Source: an uncultured Lachnospiraceae bacterium
GTDB lineage: Bacteria; Bacillota; Clostridia; Lachnospirales; Lachnospiraceae
Length of the DNA: 47,090 bases
Assembly (NCBI GenBank): GCA_947625755.1
Contig: CANQPJ010000016.1
Coordinates: forward strand, 1-47,090
Direction: 5' to 3'
Shown here: positions 22,468 to 44,457 of the stretch, in pieces
How the letters are laid out: the number at the start of each line of letters is the position of its first letter
How positions within the stretch are numbered: the first letter of the stretch is position 1
Notes under the pieces: model-generated
Seen by the model: the letters and a program-made list of their open reading frames with translations, nothing else
Told to the model about the DNA's origin: nothing
The model's database searches: none
Made by a program: the position numbers and the translations under genes

Positions 22468-23343
22468 CTATAACATCTTTTCTTTTATATATTGAATAAT
22501 ATGGTCTGCCACATTGACGCCTGTGCAGTCGTATATATTTTTAAAATGTGCGTTGGAATTTACTTCACATAAAATCGGTTCACCCTCTTTCCCAAACAAA
22601 ATATCCACTCCTGCAAAATCCAGATGTAACTCTCTGCAGACCAAAAGTGCCATCTCCCTCTGCTCTTTTGTCGGGGCATATTTTTTCATTCTGCCTCCGT
22701 TGGTTATATTTGCGCGAAAATCATTCTCATTTATCCTCTCCATTGCTGTTACAACCCTGTCTCCAACAACATGAATCCGCACATCCCGTCCTTTAGAGCT
22801 TTCTACATACTCCTGTAAAAGAAATTCATTATGTCCAATTTCCTTAATTTTTTCTACGGCATCATAATAATTTTTAACCAAATAAACCTGTTCTCCAAAA
22901 GACCCTTTATTCTCCTTAATCACCATAGGGTATCCAAGACTGCCCTGCACCTGTAAAAGAAAGGTATAATCCGGATACTCTCTGTTAAAGTTCATTGGCG
23001 CAATAAAAGTTTTTGGCATTCTGATATTCTTATTCTTTAACTTAATAAACGTAAGCGCTTTATCATCGCATACCTCAATTCCATCTGCACTGTTAAAAAC
23101 ATGAAACCCTTCTGCCTCCAACAATCTTGCCAGTTTCACATCTTTGTCCCAAAACAATACAAAATCCGGTCTTTCTCTCCAGTTAATCTTCTGCGTACTT
23201 GCAGGCAGAATAGAATCCAGCTGGTCATTGGGAATTTTTTTGAGTCTGATATTTTCCTTTTCTGCTGCATCTGCCAGCCACCGGTAAATTTCCTCAAACT
23301 TTTCATTTTTTAAATATCCGTTTGTAACTAACCATCCCTGCAT
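22468..23343 (-). CDS. ATP-grasp (RimK-like) ligase, first of a tandem pair
   Basis: ATP-grasp protein (about 291 aa) of the RimK/LysX-like group, which adds amino acids or similar groups to carboxylates. It shows YPMVIKENKGSFGEQVYLV, LLQEYVESSKGRDVRIHVVG, ANITNGGRMKKY and the metal site DFAGVDILF...LCEVNSNAHF with the normal E-x-N. The start at 23343 is favoured by AGGAGC 7 nt upstream; the longer ATG at 23376 lies inside a strong hairpin. It is followed after 6 bp by its divergent paralogue. The residues before the grasp domain (residues 1-110) resemble the small N-terminal domain of RimK proteins. Two ligases acting in order on one product is a reasonable guess; the product is unknown. Confidence 0.85.
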   Translation of the reverse strand: MQGWLVTNGYLKNEKFEEIYRWLADAAEKENIRLKKIPNDQLDSILPASTQKINWRERPDFVLFWDKDVKLARLLEAEGFHVFNSADGIEVCDDKALTFIKLKNKNIRMPKTFIAPMNFNREYPDYTFLLQVQGSLGYPMVIKENKGSFGEQVYLVKNYYDAVEKIKEIGHNEFLLQEYVESSKGRDVRIHVVGDRVVTAMERINENDFRANITNGGRMKKYAPTKEQREMALLVCRELHLDFAGVDILFGKEGEPILCEVNSNAHFKNIYDCTGVNVADHIIQYIKEKML

Positions 23344-29140: not shown

Positions 29141-29175
29141 AAAAAAATGGGGACAATAATTAAAACTACTGCCCC
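29141..29175 (-). terminator. Terminator-like hairpin inside the glf leader
   Basis: Minus strand GGGGCAGTAGT pairs with ATTATTG-T-CCCC (one bulge) and is followed by ATTTTTTT. It lies after the glf promoter and before its ribosome site, so it would stop transcription before glf unless the fold is prevented. Confidence 0.6.
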
Positions 29176-29407: not shown

Positions 29408-30037
29408 TCACAGCTCTACTATCTCCTTACAATATGAAAGTGCAGTATCATCATGAGACACCATAATAACGGTTTTTCCCTCTTCATTAAGTTTTGTTAG
29501 CAATCTCATAACTATCTCTGAATTTTTTTCATCAAGACTTCCTGTTGGCTCATCTGCAAATACAATGCGGCAATTCTTAAGCATCAATCTTGCAATTGCA
29601 ATTCTCTGCTGCTCTCCACCGGAACATGTATATATTTTTTTGTTTAAGAAATTCTCATGAAAACCAACTTCTTTCAAAGCCTCCCTCATAAGATTTTTCT
29701 CGTTTTCTTTATCTTTCTTGTTCAAAGCAATCTTAAGGTTTTCATAAACATTCAAATCATCAATAAGTGCATAATTTTGAAAAAGATAACCTATGGTATT
29801 TTTTAACATGATTTTTCTTTTCTTTTTATCACCATAGGATACATCTTCTCCAAAAATTGAAAGCGTACCTTCAAAACTTTCTAATAAGCCCATGATATTT
29901 AATAGTGTTGTTTTTCCTTTTCCACTCTCCCCTTTTATTCCAAGGAATGTTCCCTCTTCTATTTTCAAATTAAAGTGATCAAGTATTACTTTCTCGTTAT
30001 ATTTCTTCATTATATTTTTCAATTCAATTGCATACAT
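29408..30037 (-). CDS. ABC transporter ATPase, bacteriocin-export/MacB-like type
   Basis: ATP-binding subunit (209 aa) of the MacB/LolD-like group. It has Walker A GESGKGKTTL (about 35-44), signature CSGGEQQRIAIARL, Walker B RIVFADEPTGSLD and switch MVSHDD. It is co-transcribed with the large permease (4-bp spacing). Context with AgrD/AgrB and a secreted protease suggests export, processing support or self-protection linked to the peptide-controlled product. Similar ATPases accompany lactococcin-972-type bacteriocins, but no such precursor was found here. Last gene of the agr-effector unit. Confidence 0.9.
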   Translation of the reverse strand: MYAIELKNIMKKYNEKVILDHFNLKIEEGTFLGIKGESGKGKTTLLNIMGLLESFEGTLSIFGEDVSYGDKKKRKIMLKNTIGYLFQNYALIDDLNVYENLKIALNKKDKENEKNLMREALKEVGFHENFLNKKIYTCSGGEQQRIAIARLMLKNCRIVFADEPTGSLDEKNSEIVMRLLTKLNEEGKTVIMVSHDDTALSYCKEIVEL

Positions 30038-30041
30038 TTTT

Positions 30042-31904
30042 TTACCGTCCCTTAATTACTGTTCCAATATTTTTAAATGATTTTTGTTTCAATAATAAAT
30101 AAAACATTATCGTTTCAGGTAATACTAAAAAGATAAATATTCTATTTACCACCAGCGATGCTATTACAACAATTGTTGCATTATATATTAGAAATGAACT
30201 GATGTCTTCCATAGCATTTTTTCCAAAAAGATTAAGTACAGCCATTTTCTTTTTCTTAAATTCATAATAAACAGAATATAACGTAATATCTACCAACAAA
30301 TATGTTAAAAGAATAATAAATGTGTACATTACACTTTCAAACAAATCCGTCTGATAATTGGATATAAATACAAGTATTTCTGTTCTTAACGGCTCAAGTT
30401 CTATGTCAGACCTTTCATAGCCCATCTCTTTCAACTTATTTTCCAGTTTTTTTGCCACAGTTTCAGTCATTAAAACTTCACCATAACCTAAACTTGGCGT
30501 TTTTTTCAAATCAGTAACCAATACAACGGAATTATATGAATATTTACCCGGAACACTAAAATCAACAAGCCATTGCTCATCGGCAATACATACTGCTTCA
30601 ACTTCTTCTAATCCCTCATAATCAATTATTTCCTGTCTTTTTGCCCATAAGTTTTCAGGAACTAGAATATACGATTTTTCACTATCCAAGTCCGGTTTTT
30701 TTCCATCTTTATCTTTAATCCCAAGAATCGGTAACATATTTTGAGATATAATGAGCATATTACTTTCAATACTATCCATATCATCATAAATAACTTTTTT
30801 TTCATATTTTTCAAGTTTTAAATCTGATGAAGCATAGTTATATATTTGAGAATCATCGAATTTGTTCATAAAGAGTTCTACTTCTTTTCTTTCCTTCTCT
30901 GAAAGAGAAATGTGCTCTGTAAGCATGTACCAATTATATGCATTGATTTCGTTTGCTCTTTTTATTCCATCATTTAGTCTGATTGTATTATCAATTAATT
31001 TGGTCGCTATTACAAACACAACTACTACCAATCCAACCTTAAAAACCATTAATAGTATATATATTAGCTTATTATTTTTTTTATTTTTTATAGAATGAAT
31101 GAAATCTGCATTTTTAATAAAAATAACAGCTATTACTGCAACGCATATATATACAATATTTAGAGACAAGAATAACAACAATATCATAAATAAATATTGA
31201 GTTAGTTGCTTTATATCCCTTATGATTATGTATATAGAAAATGCAGCTGCAAGACTTAAAAAGCCATATGCTGTATTAATTAATAGGCTCTTAAATAATC
31301 GAAGAGAAATTCGGGATTCTGACCAACCATTCAATTTTAATATTCCAATTTCTTTTGACCTTGAAATGTAATATATTACTATACAAAAAAGAGAGAGACA
31401 AAAAATCGAAACAAAGAAACCGATATTTAATGAACTAAATAGCATTCCCACATTAAACCTGATAGGTTCTTTATATGCTATATATGAATTTATACCCGCT
31501 TCTGCTAACTTGTTCTGGAATGTTGAAATCTTATTAGCATCATCCTCTTGTACCATAAAATATCTTACGGTTCTATCTTTAAGTGATTTCCCTGTAACTA
31601 TCTCAATATGCTGATTTGGAAATAAGCTCTTTTGAACTCCATCAACCAAGTCATTTGAAGGATTCAGCACCTCAATTTCGCAATCTATATTTCCAAATGC
31701 ATAATTATTAATTGTTCTTATTTGGACTGACACGTCACTTTCCTTGGCGTATTTTTCAAGAATCTCCAAATTGATTTTCTTATCTAACGAAAAATCAGCC
31801 GCTCTAGACTCACTAATATATCCAGATTTATCAGCTATTAATAACATAAGATAAATAGAAAAAATGGCAGTCAAAATTCCTATTAACGTGAAAATTTTTT
31901 TCAT
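30042..31904 (-). CDS. ABC permease, bacteriocin-associated integral membrane protein (DUF1430-like)
   Basis: Large membrane protein (about 620 aa) resembling the bacteriocin-associated family with DUF1430. A signal-like first helix is at 4-24, then a ~130-residue outer domain. Three or four helices lie at about 155-290, a second outer domain at about 320-515, and two or three helices at the end (FIILLTYLLVDITLYSVYYEF, FLIYNATIVVIASLVV). This outer-domain/helix layout is MacB/FtsX-like and fits mechanotransmission rather than classic pumping. Start at 31904 has GGAGG 11 nt upstream. The ATG at 31922 overlaps that site. A 10-bp perfect hairpin lies just upstream. Pairs with the ATPase 4 bp downstream. 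Confidence 0.82.
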   Translation of the reverse strand: MKKIFTLIGILTAIFSIYLMLLIADKSGYISESRAADFSLDKKINLEILEKYAKESDVSVQIRTINNYAFGNIDCEIEVLNPSNDLVDGVQKSLFPNQHIEIVTGKSLKDRTVRYFMVQEDDANKISTFQNKLAEAGINSYIAYKEPIRFNVGMLFSSLNIGFFVSIFCLSLFCIVIYYISRSKEIGILKLNGWSESRISLRLFKSLLINTAYGFLSLAAAFSIYIIIRDIKQLTQYLFMILLLFLSLNIVYICVAVIAVIFIKNADFIHSIKNKKNNKLIYILLMVFKVGLVVVVFVIATKLIDNTIRLNDGIKRANEINAYNWYMLTEHISLSEKERKEVELFMNKFDDSQIYNYASSDLKLEKYEKKVIYDDMDSIESNMLIISQNMLPILGIKDKDGKKPDLDSEKSYILVPENLWAKRQEIIDYEGLEEVEAVCIADEQWLVDFSVPGKYSYNSVVLVTDLKKTPSLGYGEVLMTETVAKKLENKLKEMGYERSDIELEPLRTEILVFISNYQTDLFESVMYTFIILLTYLLVDITLYSVYYEFKKKKMAVLNLFGKNAMEDISSFLIYNATIVVIASLVVNRIFIFLVLPETIMFYLLLKQKSFKNIGTVIKGR

Positions 31905-31929
31905 ATTAATTATTTCCTCCATTTTTTGT

Positions 31930-31979
31930 GAAAAGAGGGTACCCTCAAAATCATTAGACTTTTGGAAACCCCTCTTTTC
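31930..31979 (-). other. Strong hairpin before the DUF1430 permease gene
   Basis: GAAAAGAGGG and CCCTCTTTTC are a perfect 10-bp inverted repeat 30 nt apart, with a second inner CCAAAA/TTTTG pairing. On the minus strand it is followed by ACAAAAAATGG, not a T-run. It is therefore more likely a processing or stability element than a terminator. Confidence 0.55.
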
Positions 31980-32087
31980 TCTAAATTTTTATTTTTACTT
32001 CTCACACAGCCAGCATAATTTTTTTTAATGTTTAACAAATCTAACAACAAACTTTTAGTATTTTCACTTTTTCTTTTGGATAAACAA

Positions 32088-33233
32088 TTAGTAACTGATT
32101 TTAATAGCTTCACCTTTTTTTAAAATCGGAAATTTGATTTTTTTGCTTGTCTTTTTTCCATTTTCCTTTTGTGTTACAGTAAAATATCCGGATTTTCCCT
32201 TTAGGGTGCTGTTTTTTATCGTAATATTTGTATAAGAACTATCTATTACACATTTTTTTACCAACTTTCCTTTATACTTAAAACTTAATGTTGAATTCGC
32301 TGCTGTTTTTATGCCATATTTTATTCCTTTTCTGATTCTCTTTGCTGTGTCACATATTGGCTTTTCAGTGACATATTTTTCAACTTTTACTGTTTTATTT
32401 TTAGATATCTTTTCCTTTTTTGAGTTTAGTCCACTTATTTGAATATCCTTTGCTTTAGTATAATCAAACACTAATTTGAATTTATTTAATTCAACTTTTA
32501 CTGTTTTTTTCTTTCCATTATACTTTCCTGTAACATATTTACATCCTTTTGCTTTTCCAGTTATAAAAATTTTTTTTGAATCATATTTTACATGAACACT
32601 TTTTATTACCGGAACGTTCGCCAGAAAATATTCTGTTACAGTAATTGTTTCATCCCCTCCTACAGCATCATTATTAATTGCCGTTGAATATCTTTTTGTC
32701 ATACCTTTAATATCACATTTTTGAATGCTATAGTATCTATTTGCAGGATTCATAACTGATACACTGCCTTGATTATTATGCGCCAATCCCAATGCATGAC
32801 CTAATTCATGTTCAGCAACATTTATTATCTGCGCTTCCGTATAATCATACTTTTTGAATGCTGCTCTATTTAACATTATTTTGTTCTTTATAATATGTCC
32901 ATCTGAAGCTCTATACTGCGTATTACAATACCCTGCTATTTTTAAACCACTCTTTGAATCATCTTCATATGATGATACCGTAGTCTTTGATGAACTTTTT
33001 TTCGTCCATTTAAAACCACTATCGATCCATTTTTTTGTAGATTTAGACCAAATATTTTTATATTTTTTCGATGTTGAATTCACTTGGTAATTTGCCGTTT
33101 TTTTTGCATAACGCCAACCCTTCATAGGTGTTGTCGCCTTCGTGCTTCCGTATGCAGTCACACTACACATCATAATTGTAATCATTGATACTGATAAAAT
33201 TTTTTTCGCCTTATTTAATATCTTCTTTCTCAT
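32088..33233 (-). CDS. Secreted matrixin-type zinc metalloprotease
   Basis: Exported protease of about 381 aa. A signal peptide (MRKKILNKAKK then hydrophobic ILSVSMITIMMCSVTAYGS) is followed by a pro/N-terminal region. The catalytic zinc motif HELGHALGLAH (H142, E143, H146, H152) is followed by the methionine turn SVMNPAN, as in matrixins (M10). A lysine-rich C-terminal half (~170 aa) looks like one or two Ig-like beta domains (TVKVELNKFKLVFDY). Start at 33233 has GGGAGG 9 nt upstream. The reading from 33296 overlaps agrB. It lies between agrB (19 bp) and the ABC genes in the peptide-regulated unit, so its expression should follow quorum signalling. Substrate unknown. Confidence 0.88.
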   Translation of the reverse strand: MRKKILNKAKKILSVSMITIMMCSVTAYGSTKATTPMKGWRYAKKTANYQVNSTSKKYKNIWSKSTKKWIDSGFKWTKKSSSKTTVSSYEDDSKSGLKIAGYCNTQYRASDGHIIKNKIMLNRAAFKKYDYTEAQIINVAEHELGHALGLAHNNQGSVSVMNPANRYYSIQKCDIKGMTKRYSTAINNDAVGGDETITVTEYFLANVPVIKSVHVKYDSKKIFITGKAKGCKYVTGKYNGKKKTVKVELNKFKLVFDYTKAKDIQISGLNSKKEKISKNKTVKVEKYVTEKPICDTAKRIRKGIKYGIKTAANSTLSFKYKGKLVKKCVIDSSYTNITIKNSTLKGKSGYFTVTQKENGKKTSKKIKFPILKKGEAIKISY

Positions 33234-33252
33234 ATTAAAATCCTCCCTAGCA

Positions 33253-33849
33253 TTACTTTTCTTTAAGTACTTTCTTTTTAACCAATTTAATTTCAATAAG
33301 TCCCAGCACTAGCGAAACACATAGTACAATATCTGCCATAAATATGCATATGGATACTCCTTGACGTTTTGATACTAATGCAAAAACTGTCAAGAACGAT
33401 TCAATACTCCATACAACAATTGTCTTTTTTCTATATATTATCTTTTCAATTTCATCAAGTTCCTTTTTCACTGCTTCAACTGGTGAAAACGAAAGAATAA
33501 TTATACTCGAAACCATAAATAATCCCAAATAAATGAAAATATTAATCTGAATATACTTCATTACTGAAAGCACTACTGTGATTATTAATATTGTTAATAA
33601 ATAACACTTTAATGGCGTAGATGCATGATAACCTCCCGCATATTTTCTTAATAACATGAACGATAAAACAAATATAATTCCCTGCCATATCATTCCCATA
33701 ATTAACCCAATTACCAGAAGTGTCAACAAATCTAAAATACTTGTGAGTAGCTGCTCTAACCCATATTGATATATTTCATAATCTTCATCTTTAATTGCAT
33801 TTCTCGATAGCAACCTATTTGTAACTTTCTTCGAAATCTTTCTAACCAT
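33253..33849 (-). CDS. agrB: AgrB-like peptide processing/export membrane protease
   Basis: Integral membrane cysteine protease (198 aa, PF04647 family) that cuts and cyclises an AgrD peptide. The catalytic pair is in YAGGYHASTPLKCY: H75 and C82, the same 7-residue spacing as H77/C84 of S. aureus AgrB. About five or six hydrophobic segments follow (40-65, 78-98, 100-118, 145-180). Its ATG overlaps the stop of the agrD-like gene by one base (TAATG), so the two are translationally coupled. The order agrD then agrB is reversed relative to the S. aureus operon. Confidence 0.95.
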   Translation of the reverse strand: MVRKISKKVTNRLLSRNAIKDEDYEIYQYGLEQLLTSILDLLTLLVIGLIMGMIWQGIIFVLSFMLLRKYAGGYHASTPLKCYLLTILIITVVLSVMKYIQINIFIYLGLFMVSSIIILSFSPVEAVKKELDEIEKIIYRKKTIVVWSIESFLTVFALVSKRQGVSICIFMADIVLCVSLVLGLIEIKLVKKKVLKEK

Positions 33850-33992
33850 TAAAACTTTCTAAGTTTCTTTACGCTATTTGGAACTTTTGGCTGATGAAAA
33901 AACCAAGAACATGCAGAATTAACATTACTTTTTGCCGATGCTAAAGCTGCAGCTCCAATAATTTTATCAACTGTCTTTGCTTCTTTTTTCAT
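33849..33992 (-). CDS. agrD: AgrD-like cyclic autoinducer peptide precursor (47 aa)
   Basis: The gene is too short for normal gene calling, so I read it by hand. ATG at 33992 has AAAGGAGG 9 nt upstream, and the frame ends in TAA overlapping the agrB ATG. The peptide begins MKKEAKTVDKIIGAAALASA, an amphipathic leader rich in Ala. The core NSACSWFFHQPKVPNS follows, then a basic tail KKLRKF. Cys28 followed by four residues, then the H-Q-P-K-V-P block, matches clostridial AgrD proteins, where a P-x-x-P-containing tail is removed. The predicted signal is a thiolactone ring C28-F32 (CSWFF) with a short exocyclic tail. Ring size is inferred by analogy. Confidence 0.92.
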   Translation of the reverse strand: MKKEAKTVDKIIGAAALASAKSNVNSACSWFFHQPKVPNSVKKLRKF

Positions 33993-34063
33993 AAATTACT
34001 TCCTCCTTTCGCCAATTGTCTTCCAGCAAGAAAGAGAATAACATATTTGTTTCAATTTTTATC

Positions 34064-34093
34064 TCTGTTGTACAAAATCATAGTACTTTTGTA
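34064..34093 (-). promoter_or_regulatory. Predicted LytTR (AgrA-like) binding repeats before agrD
   Basis: Minus strand TACAAAAGT (34093-34085) and TACAACAGA (34072-34064) are 9-bp direct repeats starting exactly 21 bp apart (12-bp gap). This is the spacing known for AgrA/LytTR sites. A -10-like TATTCT follows with a poor -35, as expected for an activator-dependent promoter. Confidence 0.6.
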
Positions 34094-34113
34094 TAAAATT
34101 AAAGATATTAAGT

Positions 34114-34157
34114 AAAAAAATCCCTATCAGCTGAAATTTACTTCAACTAATAGGGAT
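34114..34157 (-). terminator. Intrinsic terminator after agrC
   Basis: Minus strand ATCCCTATTAGTTGAA pairs with TTCAGCTGATAGGGAT (two mismatches) and is followed by TTTTTT (34119-34114). It separates the regulator/kinase unit from the agrD unit, which therefore needs its own promoter. Confidence 0.85.
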
Positions 34158-34163
34158 GATTTT

Positions 34164-35438
34164 TTAAATATATAACATAGCATTTACTCGAAATTCTTTT
34201 TCATCAAAATCTACCTTCATGGTACCATCATGATTATCCACCGCGGCTCTAACGCTTTTCAGACCAATTCCATGGAAAGTTTTATCTTCTTTTTTTGTAG
34301 TAATCTCCCCATTTTTCTGATTTACAATCCCATCATATCTGTTTTTCACCTCAACAAACATCGTCCCGCGTTTATACTTTATCTTCATTCGTATATACCT
34401 ATCTTCCACAACATTTTCAGACGCTTCCATGGCATTGTCTAATAAATTTCCTATAATAGTGACTAAATCTTCTACTCCCTCCTTTATATTACTCGGAATG
34501 ATTATGTTTGAATATATCTTAATATTCTGTTCACTGGCTTTGCTTAACTTATAATTAATTACACTATCTAAAGCAACGTTCCCAGTACTGCTGTATATTT
34601 CATTTTTTTCAATTTTTTCAGCTATGTTGCCAATGTATTTTTTCACTTCTTCATTTTCATCACCTATCATGGATGTTATCGCATATAAATGATTCTTCAT
34701 ATCATGTCGAAGTGCTCTCATTCCTTTATCACCCTGCTCTAACAACTCTGCCTGCCTCAAATAATAGTTTTTTTCTCTCTTAATTACTTCTGACTGAATT
34801 CTTTCCGCATAATATCTGGATATTACATCATACAAATAAATTATTAAAAACAGAACGAGTAGCATACATATAACAGATATGACTTTAATACTGTCCACAA
34901 TGTTTTCCTGTGAAAAAATAGCTGTTTCCATTGAAAAAATAATAATACTCAATACAACTATAATAATATCAAAAGTCCTTGGCAATACAATCTCCGTATT
35001 AATATTCTTGAAAGCACTAATTATTTTATATATAATCCAAAGAACAATAGAAATAGCTATATACGAAAAAGCATCTCCATTGTGTCCACTCTCCGAAATA
35101 TGAATATCTCCTAATTCCAACACTCCTGCAACCACAGTTTCTGATGCAAATAAGCACACATAAGTTAAAAAAACAGCAATTATCTTTTTTTCTATGTTCC
35201 CACCATAACATAATGTAATTATAAACAACGTACTCACTCCGACCAGCATATTCAATAACACATATGGCATGTAAGTATACTGTACTGCACACACAACAAA
35301 ACGTAATATATAAGCCGTAGCAATAAGTCTTTTTTCTTTCGTTCCCGTACCAAGAAATATTGTCATAAATTTTGATATGATATATAGTTCAAAGAACGAC
35401 GATAATATATAAGAAATCACATATAAAATATTTCCCAT
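34164..35438 (-). CDS. agrC: AgrC-like GHKL sensor histidine kinase
   Basis: Membrane receptor for a cyclic peptide (424 aa). Six or so hydrophobic segments fill residues 5-205. A helical linker follows, then a cytosolic kinase domain with the phosphorylated histidine in LRHDMKNHL (H245), the N box IIGNLLDNAMEAS (near 325-338) and the G box FHGIGLKS (near 392). The atypical HDxxNH H-box is typical of the AgrC/LytS-like GHKL group. Its start overlaps the stop of the response regulator gene in TAATG, and a terminator follows. It probably senses the product of the agrD gene downstream. Confidence 0.92.
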   Translation of the reverse strand: MGNILYVISYILSSFFELYIISKFMTIFLGTGTKEKRLIATAYILRFVVCAVQYTYMPYVLLNMLVGVSTLFIITLCYGGNIEKKIIAVFLTYVCLFASETVVAGVLELGDIHISESGHNGDAFSYIAISIVLWIIYKIISAFKNINTEIVLPRTFDIIIVVLSIIIFSMETAIFSQENIVDSIKVISVICMLLVLFLIIYLYDVISRYYAERIQSEVIKREKNYYLRQAELLEQGDKGMRALRHDMKNHLYAITSMIGDENEEVKKYIGNIAEKIEKNEIYSSTGNVALDSVINYKLSKASEQNIKIYSNIIIPSNIKEGVEDLVTIIGNLLDNAMEASENVVEDRYIRMKIKYKRGTMFVEVKNRYDGIVNQKNGEITTKKEDKTFHGIGLKSVRAAVDNHDGTMKVDFDEKEFRVNAMLYI

Positions 35439-36151
35439 TATTCTTCCTCCAATCTATTGTATTTATCTCTAATTGCTTTTCTTCTTGATTGGCTTATGGA
35501 AAACTCTTCATTATCTGCCATTACTACATGGTCATATCTCATTATTTGGATAAATTTATAATTTACTATGTATGATTTATGTATAAATAGAAATCCATAA
35601 TTTTTTACTCGTTCATAAACTGACTCAAGAGATTCATAAAAAGTGTCCTCCCCATCTGTTGTAAACATACTTACTTTTCTATTATTTCGAACAAAATACA
35701 TAATTTTGAATATCTCTACTTTGTGACTGGAATAGCCTTTCCTATAATGAAATGTATCTTTCATTCCCCCGTTAAGATTAATGTATACATCTATAACATT
35801 TCTTATCTGCTCTTCATCTAATGGCTTTACCAGAAAGTCAATCGGTCTGACTTTAAAAAGCTCCATTGCATATTCCTGTTTTGATGAAATGTACACTATT
35901 TGCGTAATATTATTCTTTTTCGTCTCACGAATATATTTTCCAATTTCCACACCATTCATTTTAGGCAATTCTATATCTAGAAATACCAAATCATATTTTG
36001 TTTTTTCCATCTCTTCACATAACGTTTCCCCCGAATAGAAAACATCAATATCATATTCAAGAAATTTATTTGACAAAATATTTATCAGCATCTTTTCAAT
36101 ATGTGAACATATTTTTATCTCATCATCACATACCGCAAATTTTATCTGCAT
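35438..36151 (-). CDS. agrA: AgrA-like LytTR response regulator
   Basis: Cytosolic transcription factor (237 aa). The receiver domain (1-~120) has acidic residues CDDE and phospho-acceptor D in LVFLDIELPKMNG (near 57), and the conserved K in FLVKPLD. The C-terminal LytTR DNA-binding domain follows (EIFKIMYFVRNNRKVSMFTTDGE, FLFIHKSYIVNY). It is the first gene of the minus-strand unit and overlaps agrC by one base. Predicted to bind the paired 9-bp repeats before agrD. Only this LytTR regulator occurs in the window. Confidence 0.94.
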   Translation of the reverse strand: MQIKFAVCDDEIKICSHIEKMLINILSNKFLEYDIDVFYSGETLCEEMEKTKYDLVFLDIELPKMNGVEIGKYIRETKKNNITQIVYISSKQEYAMELFKVRPIDFLVKPLDEEQIRNVIDVYINLNGGMKDTFHYRKGYSSHKVEIFKIMYFVRNNRKVSMFTTDGEDTFYESLESVYERVKNYGFLFIHKSYIVNYKFIQIMRYDHVVMADNEEFSISQSRRKAIRDKYNRLEEE

Positions 36152-36200: not shown

Positions 36201-36371
36201 TGGCAGAGCAGGGAATGAAACACCAACTTCTTTGCCTTGTGCCATTACCGTTTTTAGTCATATTTTTATTTTTTCTGCTTCATCCGGTTTAAGCCAATCC
36301 TATACTATACTCTCTTCCATTTTATCCATTCTTGAGATAATATCTTCATACCGTTCCTCATCCTGACACAC

Positions 36372-36415
36372 AAAAAAAGTACCACCCCAGACAATTTAAT
36401 GTCCGAAACGGTACC
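36372..36415 (-). terminator. Strong intrinsic terminator
   Basis: Minus strand GGTACCGTTTCGGACA and TGTCTGGGGTGGTACT pair over 16 positions if G-U pairs are counted, with a 6-nt loop and TTTTTTT after. It lies directly after the tRNA-like fragment, as after a real tRNA gene. Confidence 0.8.
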
Positions 36416-36419
36416 CGCG

Positions 36420-36457
36420 TGCGCCTCCAGGGGCTCGAACCCTGCACACCCTGTATG
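36420..36457 (-). pseudogene. tRNA 3'-end-like fragment, possible attachment site
   Basis: Minus strand CAGGG-TTCGAGC-CCCTG is a perfect T-arm with the invariant TTCRA loop (36444-36428), followed by GAGGCGC and A, like a 7-nt acceptor strand plus discriminator base. A tRNA-Arg-like acceptor is possible. Upstream sequence is AT-rich with no D-arm or anticodon arm, so the 5' half is missing. Such fragments mark the far end of elements that integrate into tRNA genes. Confidence 0.5.
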
Positions 36458-36771
36458 ACCTGATAGATTTTATGTGGTTTTATTTGAAGCCATATATTGT
36501 TATATCATGTATCGTAATCCCTTTATTCATCGGCAGTTCAGGTATTATAACCTGTTAAAGAAATTTAGTAACAAAATATAATATTTTTTAAAAAGTAGAA
36601 AATTCTGTGGGCAAGAATCTTAGGTTGGAGTCTAGGTTGTATTTGATGTTTATTGGAAAAATTCTAGTTGGTAAGTTTCCATTTTTGTAATCATTACCTT
36701 TTGGTTATCATGGTTTATATCTCTGGTAATATAATTTTGCATTTACTATTTTTTTGAAAGGATGTGTTTTT

Positions 36772-37014
36772 ATGAATGATATTTATTTTGCATTTTATAA
36801 TCTGGTGACTGATTCTATCGAAGCTTATTCCGGAAAAAATTTAAAAATCGTGTTTAATTGTACCCTGATAAATAGCAAAGTTTATCTTGAAGAGCCTCTG
36901 GATATTGCTTATCTTCATCGATTGGCACAGGAAGAACCATTTAATTATATTCATTTTGCTTTGCAACCTAACGGATTGCAAGAGTATGTTGAAGCAATGA
37001 ATGTGTTCAACTAA
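36772..37014 (+). CDS. Small DUF6061-like protein (80 aa)
   Basis: A short cytosolic protein resembling DUF6061 family members of Clostridia: an N-terminal beta-strand pattern, then a C-terminal EEPFNYIHFALQPNGLQEYVEAM helix-rich signature. The family has no known function. Start taken at 36772 because AAAGGATG lies about 12 nt upstream; an ATG at 36754 overlaps that site. It stands alone, opposite to the neighbouring accessory operon, and is closed by the perfect hairpin at 37031-37075. Family assignment rests on the C-terminal pattern only. Confidence 0.6.
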   Translation: MNDIYFAFYNLVTDSIEAYSGKNLKIVFNCTLINSKVYLEEPLDIAYLHRLAQEEPFNYIHFALQPNGLQEYVEAMNVFN

Positions 37015-37154: not shown

Positions 37155-38234
37155 CTATTTTAACGGATTAAGTTTATAGTCAAGATTTCCAATCAGATAA
37201 TTTTTACTATATGTACAACGACATGCATCCGCATCAAACAGTGCCACATTATATGCTGTCCTATCGAATGTACTAATATATTTGACACCATCATATCCTA
37301 AGAATTTTGCAAAATCGCTAATATATTGTGTTGGTAAATAATCCAACTCCGTATCATCACTCGTAATTGGCTTTGCTAAATCATTCTGTATTTTGCGCAA
37401 ATGTCTTTCATTAATCATATACTTTACTTTATCAGTTTCCGTATAAAACGGAGAATTGTGAGATATAATACTTAAATCCAATACCTTAACATCTCGGTTC
37501 AATCGGAAATTGGCTATTGAAACATAGTCAAAGGCGTTTGCCCTGATTTCTTTAATAGTGGTTTCTTTACTGCTACATAAATATAGACAACTTATTCCTT
37601 GGGAATTCGCCCGTCCTGCCGTAGCTTTGTCAAAAGGTGGTGCTCCCATTTCGCTTCTTTTAAAACCAACCTTGCTTGATTTTCTCGCTCTATATAAAGT
37701 TGTATTTTTCTTTATTGTTATTTCTGTATCTTTTAATACCTCTGCCAACAATTCTAAATTTATATGCTTACTATGAAATCTATTTTGATTTCTGAGATAT
37801 TTTCTGAAGTCTTCCCAATGATATAACCCCATTATTGAATTTTGTAACAAATACTCTTCACTATTCAATTCAGGAATTCCTACATTTCCGTTTAGAAGTT
37901 CATCATCAATATCTATTGCGTTTTGTATTACTCCGTCAATAATGTTTTTTACGCCAGACTCTTCTATATCAAAAATATCCCAATCATGCTTTAATCTCGA
38001 TTCCAATGTTCCCAATTTTTCTTCCGGATAATTTTTATCTAGTTTTCTTTCTGGCACATATATTTTTATTATATTTCCTAACAGTTCCTCAATGTTCGTA
38101 TTGTCTGCATTAACATCACTATCATACAGAAAAACATCATTTTTTCCACAGACCGGGCAGTCACCCTTATCATCAAGTGCTTTAATCTCAGCTTTCAACA
38201 CCTCATCTGAAAAACATTTATCACAACATATCAT
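37155..38234 (-). CDS. Zinc-ribbon protein with C-terminal RES domain
   Basis: A 359-residue cytosolic protein. The N-terminal zinc ribbon has two CxxC knuckles (C4/C7 and C26/C29). A middle helical part (~60-170) fits the HEPN/RES N-terminal domain type. From about residue 180 comes a RES domain: LYRARKSS, then AGRANSQGISCLYLCSSKETTIKEIR. The RES fold is ADP-ribosyltransferase-like, and RES toxins of RES-Xre modules break down NAD+. No Xre-type antitoxin gene is adjacent. Its start codon follows the stop of the sce7725-like gene with no gap (TAA-ATG), so it is the last gene of a three-gene operon. Toxin activity here is an inference. Confidence 0.8.
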   Translation of the reverse strand: MICCDKCFSDEVLKAEIKALDDKGDCPVCGKNDVFLYDSDVNADNTNIEELLGNIIKIYVPERKLDKNYPEEKLGTLESRLKHDWDIFDIEESGVKNIIDGVIQNAIDIDDELLNGNVGIPELNSEEYLLQNSIMGLYHWEDFRKYLRNQNRFHSKHINLELLAEVLKDTEITIKKNTTLYRARKSSKVGFKRSEMGAPPFDKATAGRANSQGISCLYLCSSKETTIKEIRANAFDYVSIANFRLNRDVKVLDLSIISHNSPFYTETDKVKYMINERHLRKIQNDLAKPITSDDTELDYLPTQYISDFAKFLGYDGVKYISTFDRTAYNVALFDADACRCTYSKNYLIGNLDYKLNPLK

Positions 38235-40131: not shown

Positions 40132-41824
40132 AGCGTAAATTTACATTCGGATTTTTTCAGGCAGATTCCACCCGGAACTTTTAGATTAGAGTTAGATTCC
40201 CAAAACTTAATTCTACCTTACAAAAAATCTCTGGCTTTTTCAATATCTTTATATAAATTTCATATTTGAATTAAAATATATCTTTTTCCTTGTATCCATT
40301 GTCAGATTCGTCTGCATACTGTCAAAATATTTCCCCATTTGTCCATGTCTGCTTTTTTCTGATGACATGATATCTGTTATGCTGTAGAAACTCTCTTCAT
40401 TTCCTGCAGCCTTTGGCAGTTCTTCTTTCTGATATCTTACCAGTTCAAGCATATCTCCATGATTATAGTAGTATGCTCTAAGCTGTGCCATTGCATCTGC
40501 TCCCTTTTTACACCATCCCTTTGGCAGACTGCTCATTCTTGATGACAGCACATGGCTTACATGACCTTCTGCACTGCAACCCGGCAGTATCCCTTTATAA
40601 CTTAATCTTGTTTTTGCAGGCATCCAGTTATTTTGTACATATTTTGAGGCTTCTTCTATCCTTCTCTTTCCCATTTCATCACCCGCTTCCAGATATTCTG
40701 TCAGTCTCCCCGTTATTTCAATAAACTCTTTCTTCCTTCCTTTTATAATGATTCTTCTTAATTCATTTATAACTTCTTCTTTCCTGTCTTTCATATGTGA
40801 TGTCATTTTCAGCAGATATTCCTGCAGATGGAACTCATCAAGAGTTGTAATCATTTCCGGCAGTCTGTGTCTTCCTTCCTTCATCCAGCTTCCACCATCA
40901 CCGTTCAAATATATTTTTTCTATTCTTCCAACATCATATGTTTTCTCTATACAATCAAAAACATCATCCCAAAAGCTTTTATTATCTGTTCCTGATGATG
41001 TTCTCGAAAAATAATGGGGATTTATAAGTCTGTTTCTTTTACTTCCCTCTGTCTCCGGTTCTATCCCCTCATATACATACACCAGTTTTGCTATGATTCC
41101 ATTATTCTTTCGTCCCTTGTCGCATACCTCCAAATCTCCTTTGCTGATGCGGTACTGCAATGCGATATGATCCTCATCTGCATCTATGTACAGATTTCTT
41201 ACATTTTTCTTTTCAGCCGCCTCCCTGCTTTCAGGAAATCTCAACCTATGGAGTTTATTCATTGCTGTCTGTTTTGATACACTCTCCAACACACTTGCAG
41301 CCTCCCCGCCTCTTCGATATGATGTCTGTACTGCTTCTTCAAGCAGTTGTGCCTCTGCATCATCCGTCATTCTTTCTCCTGTCTCCAGACCCAGCAGCTT
41401 ATCCAATAAATAGCTTCTCTCCAATGTTTCTTTATTTTTGAACAGCGTTTTTGTAAAATTCACTGAACCCAGAGATGTAATAAGGGTCTTTTTTTCATGA
41501 CGGTCAACTACCCAGTTTATCTTTCTTCTGGTTGATTCATTCAACATCTCGTCCATATCTTCCAATGTCTCTTTTATCATTTGAACTCCCAGATAATGCA
41601 GCTCGTCTGTCAGTTTTAAAACATATGAGGCAATGTCTGTAGGTTCTTTTATAAACTCATCTTCTAAATTTTCAAATCTTTTTGCACATTTTTCGTTAAA
41701 ATACTGTATACTCTTATACATAGAAAGCACCTCTCTTTTTAGTATTTGGCTGGTTACCTATACTAATCATAAAAGATTGGTGCTTTCTTTTCTATACCGA
41801 ATTATCCGAGTAAAATTTTACGCT
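40132..41824 (-). mobile_element. ISLre2-type insertion sequence (about 1.69 kb)
   Basis: Inverted ends AGCGTAAATTTACATTCGGAT (40132-40152) and, on the other strand, AGCGTAAAATTTTACTCGGAT (41824-41804) match at 17 of 21 positions and flank one transposase gene. The flanks atactttgac and agccacaata show no target duplication, so the element is old, or one end is rearranged, or the true ends differ by a few bases. Confidence 0.75.
40249..41721 (-). CDS. ISLre2 family transposase
   Basis: Transposase of about 490 aa, full length for the ISLre2 family (formerly UPF0236). N-terminal HTH-like segment with RRKINWVVDRHEKKTLITSLGSV; then SYRRGGEAAS and VSKQTAMNKLHRL. The catalytic part begins NLYIDADEDHIALQYR, with YLNGDGGSWMKEGRHRLP and TTLDEFHLQEYL as further conserved blocks. 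The frame is open throughout with no stop, so it may still be active. Start at 41721 has GAGAGGTG upstream; a GTG 9 bp earlier is an alternative. Orientation matches the accessory operon downstream, so read-through could add to its expression. Confidence 0.95.
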   Translation of the reverse strand: MYKSIQYFNEKCAKRFENLEDEFIKEPTDIASYVLKLTDELHYLGVQMIKETLEDMDEMLNESTRRKINWVVDRHEKKTLITSLGSVNFTKTLFKNKETLERSYLLDKLLGLETGERMTDDAEAQLLEEAVQTSYRRGGEAASVLESVSKQTAMNKLHRLRFPESREAAEKKNVRNLYIDADEDHIALQYRISKGDLEVCDKGRKNNGIIAKLVYVYEGIEPETEGSKRNRLINPHYFSRTSSGTDNKSFWDDVFDCIEKTYDVGRIEKIYLNGDGGSWMKEGRHRLPEMITTLDEFHLQEYLLKMTSHMKDRKEEVINELRRIIIKGRKKEFIEITGRLTEYLEAGDEMGKRRIEEASKYVQNNWMPAKTRLSYKGILPGCSAEGHVSHVLSSRMSSLPKGWCKKGADAMAQLRAYYYNHGDMLELVRYQKEELPKAAGNEESFYSITDIMSSEKSRHGQMGKYFDSMQTNLTMDTRKKIYFNSNMKFI

Positions 41825-41955: not shown

Positions 41956-44457
41956 CTATTTTGTTTTCTGACTCTTCTTTGACCACTTAGAATAATACTT
42001 CTTACCGTTTACAGTTATATAAGTTCTTATCCTTACATAGTATTTTTGCTTTGCCTTAAGTTTCTTTATTGTCTTTGTTGTAGTCTTTGCTTTCTTAATA
42101 ATTATATTCTTCGCTTTCTTAAACTTACTTGAGGTTGAATACTGAATCTGATAACCACTTACTTTTTTAACTTTCTTCCATGTAATTTTTAATGATTTTT
42201 TTGCCTTTTTTATATTTTTTATTTTTGATGCCGTTGGTAGTTTTACATCTTCGGCTTTATGTGTCGTTGCTTCAATTATTGGCTTTGTATTATTTTCAAC
42301 CTTCTTAGTCGTAGTATCGTTCTCCTTGGAAGTTATAGGTTCATTTTCTTTCGAAGTTGTTGTGCCCTCTTCTTCATCAAAATCTTCTACACATCGAGAT
42401 AAATATACGTATTTAACACCTTCACAATATAATTCATTATCTAATATATCCTCAAAAATAATATTATCTAGTTGTTCCTTAGTTCCGTTGTAATATACAA
42501 TCGCCTGACTCTCCATAATATATACGCCAATATAATCTATACTAGCAGGCAATGTCACTTTTTTTAAATTTTCACACTCGATAAATGCGTTTGTTCCTAT
42601 ACTCTCAATACCATTTGGTGCTTCTATTTCTTCTAAGCTAGAGCAACCATAAAATGTATCATCGCCAATAATTTTAAGACTTTTCGGAAGAATAATAGAT
42701 TTTAAATTGATACAGCGTGCAAATGTTCTTTCCAATGCAGATACATTTCCGGATATACTCACTTTTTCTAAATTTGAACACTCATTAAATGCTTCCCATC
42801 CTACATATTCTGTATTATCACCAAGATAAATCTCTCTTATGTTACTGCAACCTGAAAATGCATAATCACCAATTATTTTAATACTATCTGGAAATGCTAT
42901 GCTGCTGAGCTTCGTATAACTAAAGGCAAATTTCCCTATACTTAATAATCCCTCTGGCAATACTATATTCTCTAAATCACTATCCTCTTCCCAACTATGA
43001 CATGCACCACTTGCTACACATCTTGTACCGTCTTTTATTGTAAGTTCTGAAATATTACTATCTACTTTTATCAAACAATTAGATATATAAAGATTTCCTT
43101 CTTCCCAATTTTCTACATTATCATAATACTTTGTTTGTTCAAAACATTCTTCACCCACATATTCAATTGAGCTACCCAAATCAATCTTATCCAATTTTGT
43201 ACAATAGGAAAATGCAGAATCTCCAACATAAGTAACGCTATTAGGCAGTTGTATTTCCGCCAAAGACTGACATCCATAAAATGCAAAATCATCTATATTT
43301 TTTACACCATCTTGTATAATAATGTTTTGTAAATATCGGCAATCAGAAAATGCAGAATATCCTATTGATTCTACTCCACTTGGAATTATAATTGATGTTA
43401 GATTATCATTTGAATCAAATGCATATCGCCCTATATTTTTTACACTATCTGGAATGGTTACCCCTGAGATTTTACAATTTTTAAGCGCTTCGTCTGCTAT
43501 TACTTTTGTACCGTCTTTTATTTTATACTCACCTGTTAAAAAGCGATCTACTTCTAAAAGATACTTATCTAAATACAATTCATTATCTTTGTAATTGTCA
43601 CTATAGTACTTAGTTCCTTCAAAAGCCTTAGCACCTAGTTCTTCTACATTACTACCAATTGATATTTCTGTTAAATCACTACATCCGTTAAAAGCCCATG
43701 TTCCTATCTTTTTAATATTTTCTGGAATATTTATTTCTTTTAAGCTACTACAATTACTAAAAACACTTTCACTAAGTTCTTTTATATTACTAGATAAAAG
43801 AACTGATTTCAAAACTGTACATCCATTAAAACTTCCAGCTCCTATTTCTTTTACACTGTCAGGAATTGTTATGTTGGTCAGACTTGTGCAATCTGAAAAT
43901 GCATAATCACCAATTTTTCTTACAGAACTTGGTATTTCTATTTCCGTCAAACTTGTGCACCCCCGAAAAGTTCCTCCACTAATTCCATTAAGATTTTTTG
44001 ACAAGACAACTTTCTTTAGTTCTGAGCAACCTTGAAACGCATTGCTATTTATATTTCTTACACTATCTGCTATTATTACTGTTTCCAAATTTGGATAATT
44101 TGCAAAAGTACAGTCTATTCCCGTAACTCCTTCCTCTATAATTAATTCCTTTACCTCTGATTTATTTGTAATCGGTTCAGTCACTAATACACCATTTACA
44201 CCAAGCGATAATATTCCCGTTGAACTTTCAAATGTCTCTGTTTCATATTCTCCATATGGTGTAATGCCTCCACTTATTATAATTTCAGCCAAAACACTAT
44301 TTGTTTTTATTCCAATTATAGTAGTCGATACTAAAATAGATACCATAATCATTGCCATTATTTTTGTTTTGTTTAGTTTTACATTCTTTGATGCTGCACG
44401 CACACTGTTAGCCAATATTAATAATGCAAACGCAACTAATTTTTTAACTTGATTCAT
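41956..44457 (-). CDS. BspA-type leucine-rich repeat surface protein with Fn3-like C-terminus
   Basis: Exported 833-residue protein. A lysine-containing N-terminus and hydrophobic stretch at about 33-57 (KIMAMIMVSILVSTTIIGI...NSVLAE) act as signal or anchor. From ~110 to ~690 run about 17 BspA-type repeats with the pattern IGdyAFsgCssLtsItIPdSVk. A Thr/Glu/Lys-rich linker (TTTSKENEPITSKEN) leads to a ~90-residue lysine-rich Fn3-like domain (KSLKITWKKVKKVSGYQIQYS, YYVRIRTYITVNGKKYYSKW). BspA proteins of gut and oral bacteria often bind host or other bacterial surfaces. No LPxTG motif is seen. The gene starts 30 bp after the stop of the RCC1 protein, with GGAGAAC as ribosome site. Confidence 0.88.
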   Translation of the reverse strand: MNQVKKLVAFALLILANSVRAASKNVKLNKTKIMAMIMVSILVSTTIIGIKTNSVLAEIIISGGITPYGEYETETFESSTGILSLGVNGVLVTEPITNKSEVKELIIEEGVTGIDCTFANYPNLETVIIADSVRNINSNAFQGCSELKKVVLSKNLNGISGGTFRGCTSLTEIEIPSSVRKIGDYAFSDCTSLTNITIPDSVKEIGAGSFNGCTVLKSVLLSSNIKELSESVFSNCSSLKEINIPENIKKIGTWAFNGCSDLTEISIGSNVEELGAKAFEGTKYYSDNYKDNELYLDKYLLEVDRFLTGEYKIKDGTKVIADEALKNCKISGVTIPDSVKNIGRYAFDSNDNLTSIIIPSGVESIGYSAFSDCRYLQNIIIQDGVKNIDDFAFYGCQSLAEIQLPNSVTYVGDSAFSYCTKLDKIDLGSSIEYVGEECFEQTKYYDNVENWEEGNLYISNCLIKVDSNISELTIKDGTRCVASGACHSWEEDSDLENIVLPEGLLSIGKFAFSYTKLSSIAFPDSIKIIGDYAFSGCSNIREIYLGDNTEYVGWEAFNECSNLEKVSISGNVSALERTFARCINLKSIILPKSLKIIGDDTFYGCSSLEEIEAPNGIESIGTNAFIECENLKKVTLPASIDYIGVYIMESQAIVYYNGTKEQLDNIIFEDILDNELYCEGVKYVYLSRCVEDFDEEEGTTTSKENEPITSKENDTTTKKVENNTKPIIEATTHKAEDVKLPTASKIKNIKKAKKSLKITWKKVKKVSGYQIQYSTSSKFKKAKNIIIKKAKTTTKTIKKLKAKQKYYVRIRTYITVNGKKYYSKWSKKSQKTK

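Follow-up and report, generated by a model that had tools for sequence, protein, structure and literature searches.

Among the described systems closest to the locus reported here, fsrABDC-gelE-sprE of Enterococcus faecalis is an agr-like locus downstream of which a secreted metalloprotease and a serine protease are encoded, both controlled by FsrA at high cell density, and gelE-sprE is described as an operon of its own downstream of fsr (PMC3299793, excerpt). The pneumococcal scbABC genes (streptococcin B) place a secreted product, a predicted immunity protein and a transport protein under a peptide pheromone, and scbBC occurs without scbA in 157 of 571 pneumococcal genomes; the function of such a lactococcin-972 immunity/transport pair is stated to be unverified (PMC11796350, excerpt). 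The mediterrocin cluster of Mediterraneibacter gnavus is a lactococcin-972-like Lachnospiraceae cluster that includes an ATP-binding cassette (ABC) protein; its product carries a Sec signal, and its DUF1430 seven-transmembrane (7TM) protein is said to be likely to confer immunity (PMC12345188, excerpt). Here we analyse an agr-type locus of an uncultured Lachnospiraceae bacterium (assembly GCA_947625755.1) in which the agr genes are followed by genes for a predicted secreted matrixin, an ABC permease and an ABC ATPase; it lies in a stretch of 47,090 nt (contig CANQPJ010000016.1, positions 1 to 47,090), hereafter called the window.

The locus resembles fsr in that a gene for a secreted protease comes immediately after the agr-like genes, agrB and the matrixin gene being 19 nt apart, and the two kinds of protease downstream of fsr are split in the window genome over two agr loci, the matrixin on contig C16 and a subtilase on contig C9. 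GelE is a thermolysin-type enzyme and not a matrixin, and we know of no ABC pair in fsrABDC-gelE-sprE. The scbABC genes differ in belonging to the com pheromone system, in encoding a lactococcin-972 peptide instead of a protease and in having the signal gene outside the operon; ComE is a LytTR-type regulator. The mediterrocin product is likewise a bacteriocin and not a protease, and the words agr and quorum are absent from the main text of its description (PMC12345188). An agr-like locus with downstream proteases has its precedent in fsr, and the cassette has its precedents in scbABC and the mediterrocin cluster; what appears new here is the combination of agr, matrixin and ABC genes as an effector swap on an agr circuit, in a layout that itself has precedents. 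The first-pass annotation of this stretch had taken effectors beside the signal genes as a novelty, a view not supported in the light of fsr (PMC3299793, excerpt) and of the C9 agr locus, where the subtilase gene is next to agrB. Its impression that the pairing of agr peptide, matrixin and ABC genes had not been described was borne out, the exact combination being found nowhere else in the genomes and literature searched: agr, AgrD and matrixin together gave no match in the open-licence literature, and the best-ranked titles and abstract openings there described neither the pairing nor the agr plus lactococcin-972 layout of locus L082 (see below).

We propose that the locus is a self-contained, density-gated operon for a secreted zinc protease with a private signal and an ABC pair in a protective or partner role, a reading to which we assign a probability of roughly 0.6. 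AgrB would cut and cyclise AgrD to a CSWFF thiolactone, AgrC would sense this thiolactone and phosphorylate AgrA, and AgrA-P would bind a tandem box and drive agrD-agrB-matrixin-permease-ATPase as one unit. The matrixin would be exported by Sec and degrade an extracellular protein, and the ABC pair would be an envelope module of lactococcin-972 type with a type VII fold, which most likely protects the producer or acts as a membrane partner and does not export the protease. Gene content, operon spacing, box, terminators and predicted fold class can be read from the DNA; we infer transcription, the structure and processing of the signal, AgrA-P binding, the secretion and substrate of the protease and the part played by the ABC pair.

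The agr genes and their predicted transcription unit

All seven genes that the first-pass annotation had placed on the minus strand were recovered at their positions, running from 36151 to 29408 as agrA-agrC, a terminator, and then agrD-agrB-matrixin-permease-ATPase. The agrA gene (35438..36151) encodes a response regulator with receiver and LytTR domains (PF00072, 65.1 bits; PF04397, 48.8 bits; both above cut-off), and agrC (34164..35438) a membrane histidine kinase with a GHKL ATPase domain (PF14501, 89.1 bits, above cut-off) that matches the AgrC family NF046015 weakly (39.5 bits, cut-off 500). The agrA stop and agrC start overlap in TAATG, and an intrinsic terminator with a 17-pair stem and a T run follows agrC at 34120..34157, both as annotated earlier; the same overlap is found between agrD and agrB. 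The 47-aa AgrD precursor (33849..33992; TIGR04223, 48.7 bits, cut-off 19) has a predicted ring of Cys28-Ser-Trp-Phe-Phe32 followed by HQPKVP, as judged from an alignment with five other AgrD sequences. In AgrB (33253..33849; PF04647, 146 bits, cut-off 23), the predicted signal-maturing membrane peptidase, His75 and Cys82 are invariant among seven aligned proteins and are presumably the catalytic pair. The locus thus has the parts of an agr-type system, i.e., an AgrB-family peptidase, an AgrD with a Cys/Ser ring and a charged tail downstream of it, and a linked GHKL kinase and LytTR regulator.

Beyond the matrixin gene there are gaps of 183 nt to the permease gene and 4 nt from permease to ATPase gene. 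In a terminator scan, strong terminators lay only at the two ends of the agrD-ATPase unit, the distal one being a terminator-like site at 29150..29175 (minus strand, 11-pair stem, T-rich tail); from agrD to the ATPase gene the scan of the minus strand listed no strong terminator and a single weak 8-pair site at 30582-30563, within the permease gene. The earlier statement that the unit holds no terminator-type signal is accurate for strong terminators, and it had left unmentioned a strong hairpin in the matrixin/permease gap (31930..31979, minus strand). The hairpin (-23.6 kcal/mol, z -3.3, equalled by 1 of 200 shuffles) has no U-tract 3' of the stem on the transcribed strand, and partial attenuation or processing ahead of the ABC genes is possible. 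No small secreted bacteriocin frame was seen in the same gap by inspection of three frames. Joint induction of signal, maker and effectors had been suggested: for the signal, its maker and the protease, which share one transcription unit behind a LytTR-type tandem box, co-induction is well supported by the sequence, and the ABC genes may be set apart by the hairpin.

A candidate AgrA site upstream of agrD

The agrC-agrD gap contains TTTTATACAAAAG and TTTTGTACAACAG separated by 8 bp (34065..34098, minus strand, period 21), and this tandem box, which ends 72 bp ahead of the agrD start, is a likely AgrA-P binding site. The site of PlnC, a LytTR-type regulator, consists of two 9-bp repeats with a 12-bp spacer, the same spacing as that of the repeats at lags 20-22 in agr promoters (PMC2714321, excerpt). 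Taken singly the period-21 repeat is weak and no more than suggestive; across the group of family gaps it appears strong. Among 31 family gaps between agrC and agrD or agrB (those of 90-500 nt directly ahead of agrD/agrB), 18 hold a 10-mer repeated with at least 9/10 identity at lags 20-22, and seven other lag triples gave 1, 1, 1, 2, 0, 3 and 3 in the same gaps. The L142 and L143 gaps are near identical, and the count with one removed is 18/30. The gaps came from 60 family regions (62 agrB genes), the best of a longer list of AgrB matches from which own-genus rows, a third G366 row and G273:C1 (which has stops) were excluded. With six gaps added by hand (window, L022, L082, L097, L098 and L101), which the 31-gap test leaves out and whose boundaries were set manually after prior inspection, 37 gaps gave 6, 10 and 7 at lags 20, 21 and 22, as against 0-3 at each of 21 other lags tested (12-35) and 1-2% in random stretches of the same loci. 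Such a lag-21 promoter test may also help to locate AgrA sites in the genomes of uncultured bacteria.

The best repeat at lags 20-22 reaches 9/10 in the gap before agrD, 6/10 in the gaps before agrA and before the permease gene and 8/10 after the ATPase gene. In the 2.25-Mb genome the window box is the sole site at up to 3 mismatches. A looser pattern found 20 sites versus 21 in the reversed control; 3 of the 20 coincide with or overlap the box and the other 17 have 3 mismatches each, and by this comparison no second genomic target stands out. We infer that the circuit acts chiefly on its own operon.

The matrixin and the ABC pair

The product of the third gene of the unit (32088..33233, 381 aa) is a predicted protease, a matrixin (peptidase M10; PF00413, 31.3 bits, cut-off 24). 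It carries a signal peptide, as recognised by eye, HELGHALGLAHN and the Met-turn SVMNP, so that HExxHxxGxxH and a Met-turn both fall within an over-cut-off match; the catalytic region, motif included, is invariant across five aligned sequences, and a Protein Data Bank profile search matched MMP-20 (E 0.0015). The C-terminal half has no Pfam match of its own, and the structure predicted from the single sequence (mean pLDDT 35.7) was unusable. The idea that this half is a disguised lactococcin-972 domain was ruled out, the alignment scores being 24-33 against shuffle maxima of 48-57.

Relatives of the matrixin are few. Full-length ones were found in one of 22 other genomes of the genus (G003, 55%, with neither agr nor ABC genes adjoining) and on 13 of 72,556 plasmid records (44% identity, 98% covered), all of Apilactobacillus kunkeei; a search of 397 genomes drawn from the family gave none besides that of the window, with short matches over the catalytic region in G290 and G416. 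Four A. kunkeei plasmids were read (OX335149.1, OX335291.1, OX335182.1 and OX335344.1; L188-L191), and the stretches fetched from them gave no agr HMM match. Since relatives are found without agr and ABC genes, the gene appears to move independently of both. On the plasmids of this honeybee bacterium the relatives are annotated as hypothetical proteins, three of the four plasmids read have a resolvase gene close to the relative, and one of the four has a lantibiotic-type cluster with genes annotated as nisB and nisC; the best-ranked open-licence literature for these plasmids held nothing on the pairing and no item naming kunkeei. Within the genus, secreted proteins of 132-140 aa in G011 (L018), G001 (L019), G016 (L020) and G005 (L021) retain the matrixin signal region and last domain and miss the protease domain, and G010 encodes a 226-aa related protein lacking the catalytic part. 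Viral carriage of the locus was set aside: a phage search gave no matrixin relative at 1e-5 (weak Listeria phage matches, E 0.2-0.3), and pattern scans of IMG/VR, which detect close relatives only, found none of matrixin, permease or AgrB.

The ATPase (29408..30037) scores 100.9 bits against a Pfam cut-off of 25, and its best match among 188 families is TIGR03608 at 242.4 bits, below the cut-off of 254.85, which places it near the lactococcin-972 exporter subfamily. The permease gene (30042..31904) most likely starts at 31904 (MKKIF, with GGAGG upstream) and not at 31922, and relatives in L043, L046, L047, L048, L050 and L051 begin at the matching position. Its product has no Pfam match at E 0.01, PF07242 included, and reaches 57.9 bits against TIGR01654 (cut-off 189.35), so the earlier label of a DUF1430-type permease is correct only in the sense of a distant relation. 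It is 56% identical to the L046 permease, which follows a lactococcin-972-like gene. A structure model built on 4 sequences (mean pLDDT 69.5) predicts a type VII fold as in YbbP, BceB and MacB, i.e., a transmembrane segment, an external domain and three transmembrane segments, repeated. In PADLOC the ATPase alone had matches, of ATPase type; matrixin, permease and two neighbours had none. We regard the pair, on the strength of the model and these matches, as a probable relative of the lactococcin-972 immunity/transport pair and not clearly an exporter. The bacteriocin-type exporter of the first-pass annotation is abandoned on these grounds, and also on account of the matrixin, which has its own signal peptide and therefore should not need an ABC pump.

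Export of the AgrD signal or of the matrixin by the pair is most improbable: AgrB is held to carry its peptide out of the cell itself, ABC genes of this kind are missing beside the agr genes of the close relatives L098, L111 and L115, and the predicted fold is type VII. In favour of export are the name of the TIGR03608 family and a figure legend in which a similar ABC protein is pictured exporting lactococcin 972 (PMC11161930, excerpt).

The pair could instead be a passenger, an immunity function whose lactococcin-972-like gene has been lost and which lies downstream of agr for historical reasons, separately expressed or silent. Mutually homologous small secreted peptides are encoded directly upstream of permease/ATPase relatives in L046, L050 and L184 (alignment scores 165, 231 and 168; best of 500 shuffles 50, 53 and 56), so that a lactococcin-972-like peptide precedes the permease in 3 of 7 loci with relatives of the pair; among the nine window proteins scanned none matches the peptide family PF09683, and the matrixin occupies that place. 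The 183-nt gap with its hairpin would fit a passenger, as would the pneumococcal genomes with scbBC alone (PMC11796350, excerpt). Against it, both ABC frames are intact and 4 nt apart with a ribosome-binding site ahead of the permease, and the matrixin/permease gap contains neither a terminator nor a lag-21 box; on balance we consider it somewhat unlikely.

Alternatively, matrixin and ABC pair may form one machine, in which a type VII ABC protein would extract or present membrane-bound substrates to the external protease, or activate it, comparable to YbbAP with the hydrolase TesA. This reading overlaps the partner branch of the operon that we propose, and the odds of the readings therefore overlap and need not sum to one. 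Against it stand matrixin relatives without this ABC pair (G003 and the four A. kunkeei plasmids), ABC relatives without a matrixin and the small alignment and modest pLDDT of the permease model, and we hold it to be unlikely. Permease matches occur in 12 of the 397 family genomes, the three in the window, G125 and G169 being strong. Of 341 class genomes 5 have a match; two of these matches, in the window and G598, span most of the length, and that in G498 covers a part. No matrixin was found beside the strong matches in the neighbourhoods read (the contig ends upstream of G169), and no permease relatives were found on plasmids. The G598 stretch (L184/L192), with lactococcin-972-like peptide, permease and ATPase genes, looks by eye like a conjugative element. 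In Eubacterium oxidoreducens (L048/L049) two contig ends each carry part of the permease gene; one of them also has a frame that by eye resembles a transposase, and the gene is probably interrupted by an insertion element.

The effector slot in related agr loci and the genomic surroundings

Five further loci were ranked together with the 60 from the family by the similarity of their agr proteins to those of the window, and the closest loci among those ranked, by AgrA identity, were L115 (65%), L098 (58%), L111 (57%) and L097 (55%). Neither matrixin nor ABC genes are present in the three that are readable beyond the agr genes: the gene after agr encodes an aconitase-family protein in L098 and a 200-aa cytosolic-looking protein in L111, and L115 has a different gene order; in L097 the contig ends beside agrB. 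On contig C9 of the window genome a second agr locus is followed by genes for a secreted subtilase (139.8 bits) and a leucine-rich-repeat protein, and L101 (G018) has the same arrangement (AgrC 75%, subtilase 154.3 bits). In L082 (G360) the genes lie on one strand in the order agrA-agrC-agrD-agrB, two lactococcin-972 genes (47.2 and 45.5 bits, cut-off 22), a DUF1430 7TM protein (39.4 bits, cut-off 28.2) and an ATPase (268 bits, cut-off 254.85), agrD being a frame recognised by eye; its agr proteins are near those of the C9 locus (AgrA 69%, AgrC 52%, AgrB 50%). Judged by gene content, L082 is the window layout with a bacteriocin replacing the protease. Among 15 loci fetched from the listed TIGR01654 matches, some cut by contig ends, L082 is the one with complete agrACDB genes directly upstream, and agr-like genes are found in the vicinity in L088 and L096. 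The search for the same gene order that had been called for gave L082, with lactococcin-972 genes in place of the protease, and not the exact trio of agr, matrixin and ABC genes, which within the genomes searched is found in the window only. By this comparison of sequences the effector slot downstream of agr is variable.

The agr genes might then be a portable private switch for swapped secreted effectors (lactococcin-972 peptides, subtilase, matrixin), with the matrixin here having replaced the bacteriocin of a lactococcin-972-type cassette and the ABC pair having become the working partner of the protease; we think this doubtful. If true, it would be a membrane-coupled, quorum-controlled proteolytic machine, and no such system appears in the best-ranked open-licence titles and abstract openings.

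Several observations weigh against the density-gated protease operon that we prefer. The trio is present in one genome only and gives no comparative support for a functional link between matrixin and ABC pair; when the window gap was resampled 2000 times with a Markov model, 85 of the resamples reached 9/10 at lags 20-22; the hairpin upstream of the permease gene could reduce ABC expression; and the figure legend cited above pictures a lactococcin-972 ABC protein as a bacteriocin exporter (PMC11161930, excerpt). Nor is there a clear family-wide rule: when the nearest non-agr gene that follows agrB in the same direction is considered, its product looks secreted in 9 of 27 cases (of 62 agrB) versus 59 of 324 control pairs (P 0.07), or 8 of 23 versus 53 of 287 for genes of at least 100 aa (P 0.10), and we do not claim that the gene after agrB is secreted. 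The operon offers a directly testable private agr circuit, with signal and effector in one predicted transcript, one genomic box and other effectors in related loci. Comparison of the window with C9/L101 (subtilase) and L082 (lactococcin-972) would tell whether density sensing guards public-good proteases, bacteriocins or both.

Other agr loci of the family show further arrangements. In L126, L127, L139, L153, L160 and L103 the agr genes are followed by a gene for a small secreted protein (128-159 aa) without a convincing Pfam family, followed in several of the six by ABC transporter-like genes, and these loci look like undescribed bacteriocin-type clusters. In L130 (1999-3864) and L156 (568-2250) a subtilase-domain protein without a signal peptide (by eye) is encoded downstream of agr and is possibly an internal maturation or signalling protease. 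Contig C27 of the window genome (L023) has a third agrB, followed by a small AgrD-like frame and facing a kinase and regulator of another type; similar sets occur in L104, L105, L107 and L108.

The window has no Rfam families or tRNAs. Beside agrA, positions 36367-36641 and 36754-37014 are a copy of a repeat of contig C9 (91% over 276 nt, 95% over 85 nt), which lies there at 1731-2006, 10477-10894 and 22825-22909 and flanks about 21 kb at a tRNA-Lys gene. Besides the second agr locus with its subtilase and leucine-rich-repeat protein, the C9 stretch encodes a phage-type integrase (109 bits) and a MobA/MobL protein (318 bits). It shares with the window a gene that matches DUF6061 weakly; the agr locus of the window may border a related island. 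On the right-hand side of this locus there are a RES-domain gene (37155-38234), a UPF0236 gene (40249-41730), which we take to be of transposase type, and a gene for a BspA-type leucine-rich-repeat protein (41956-44457).

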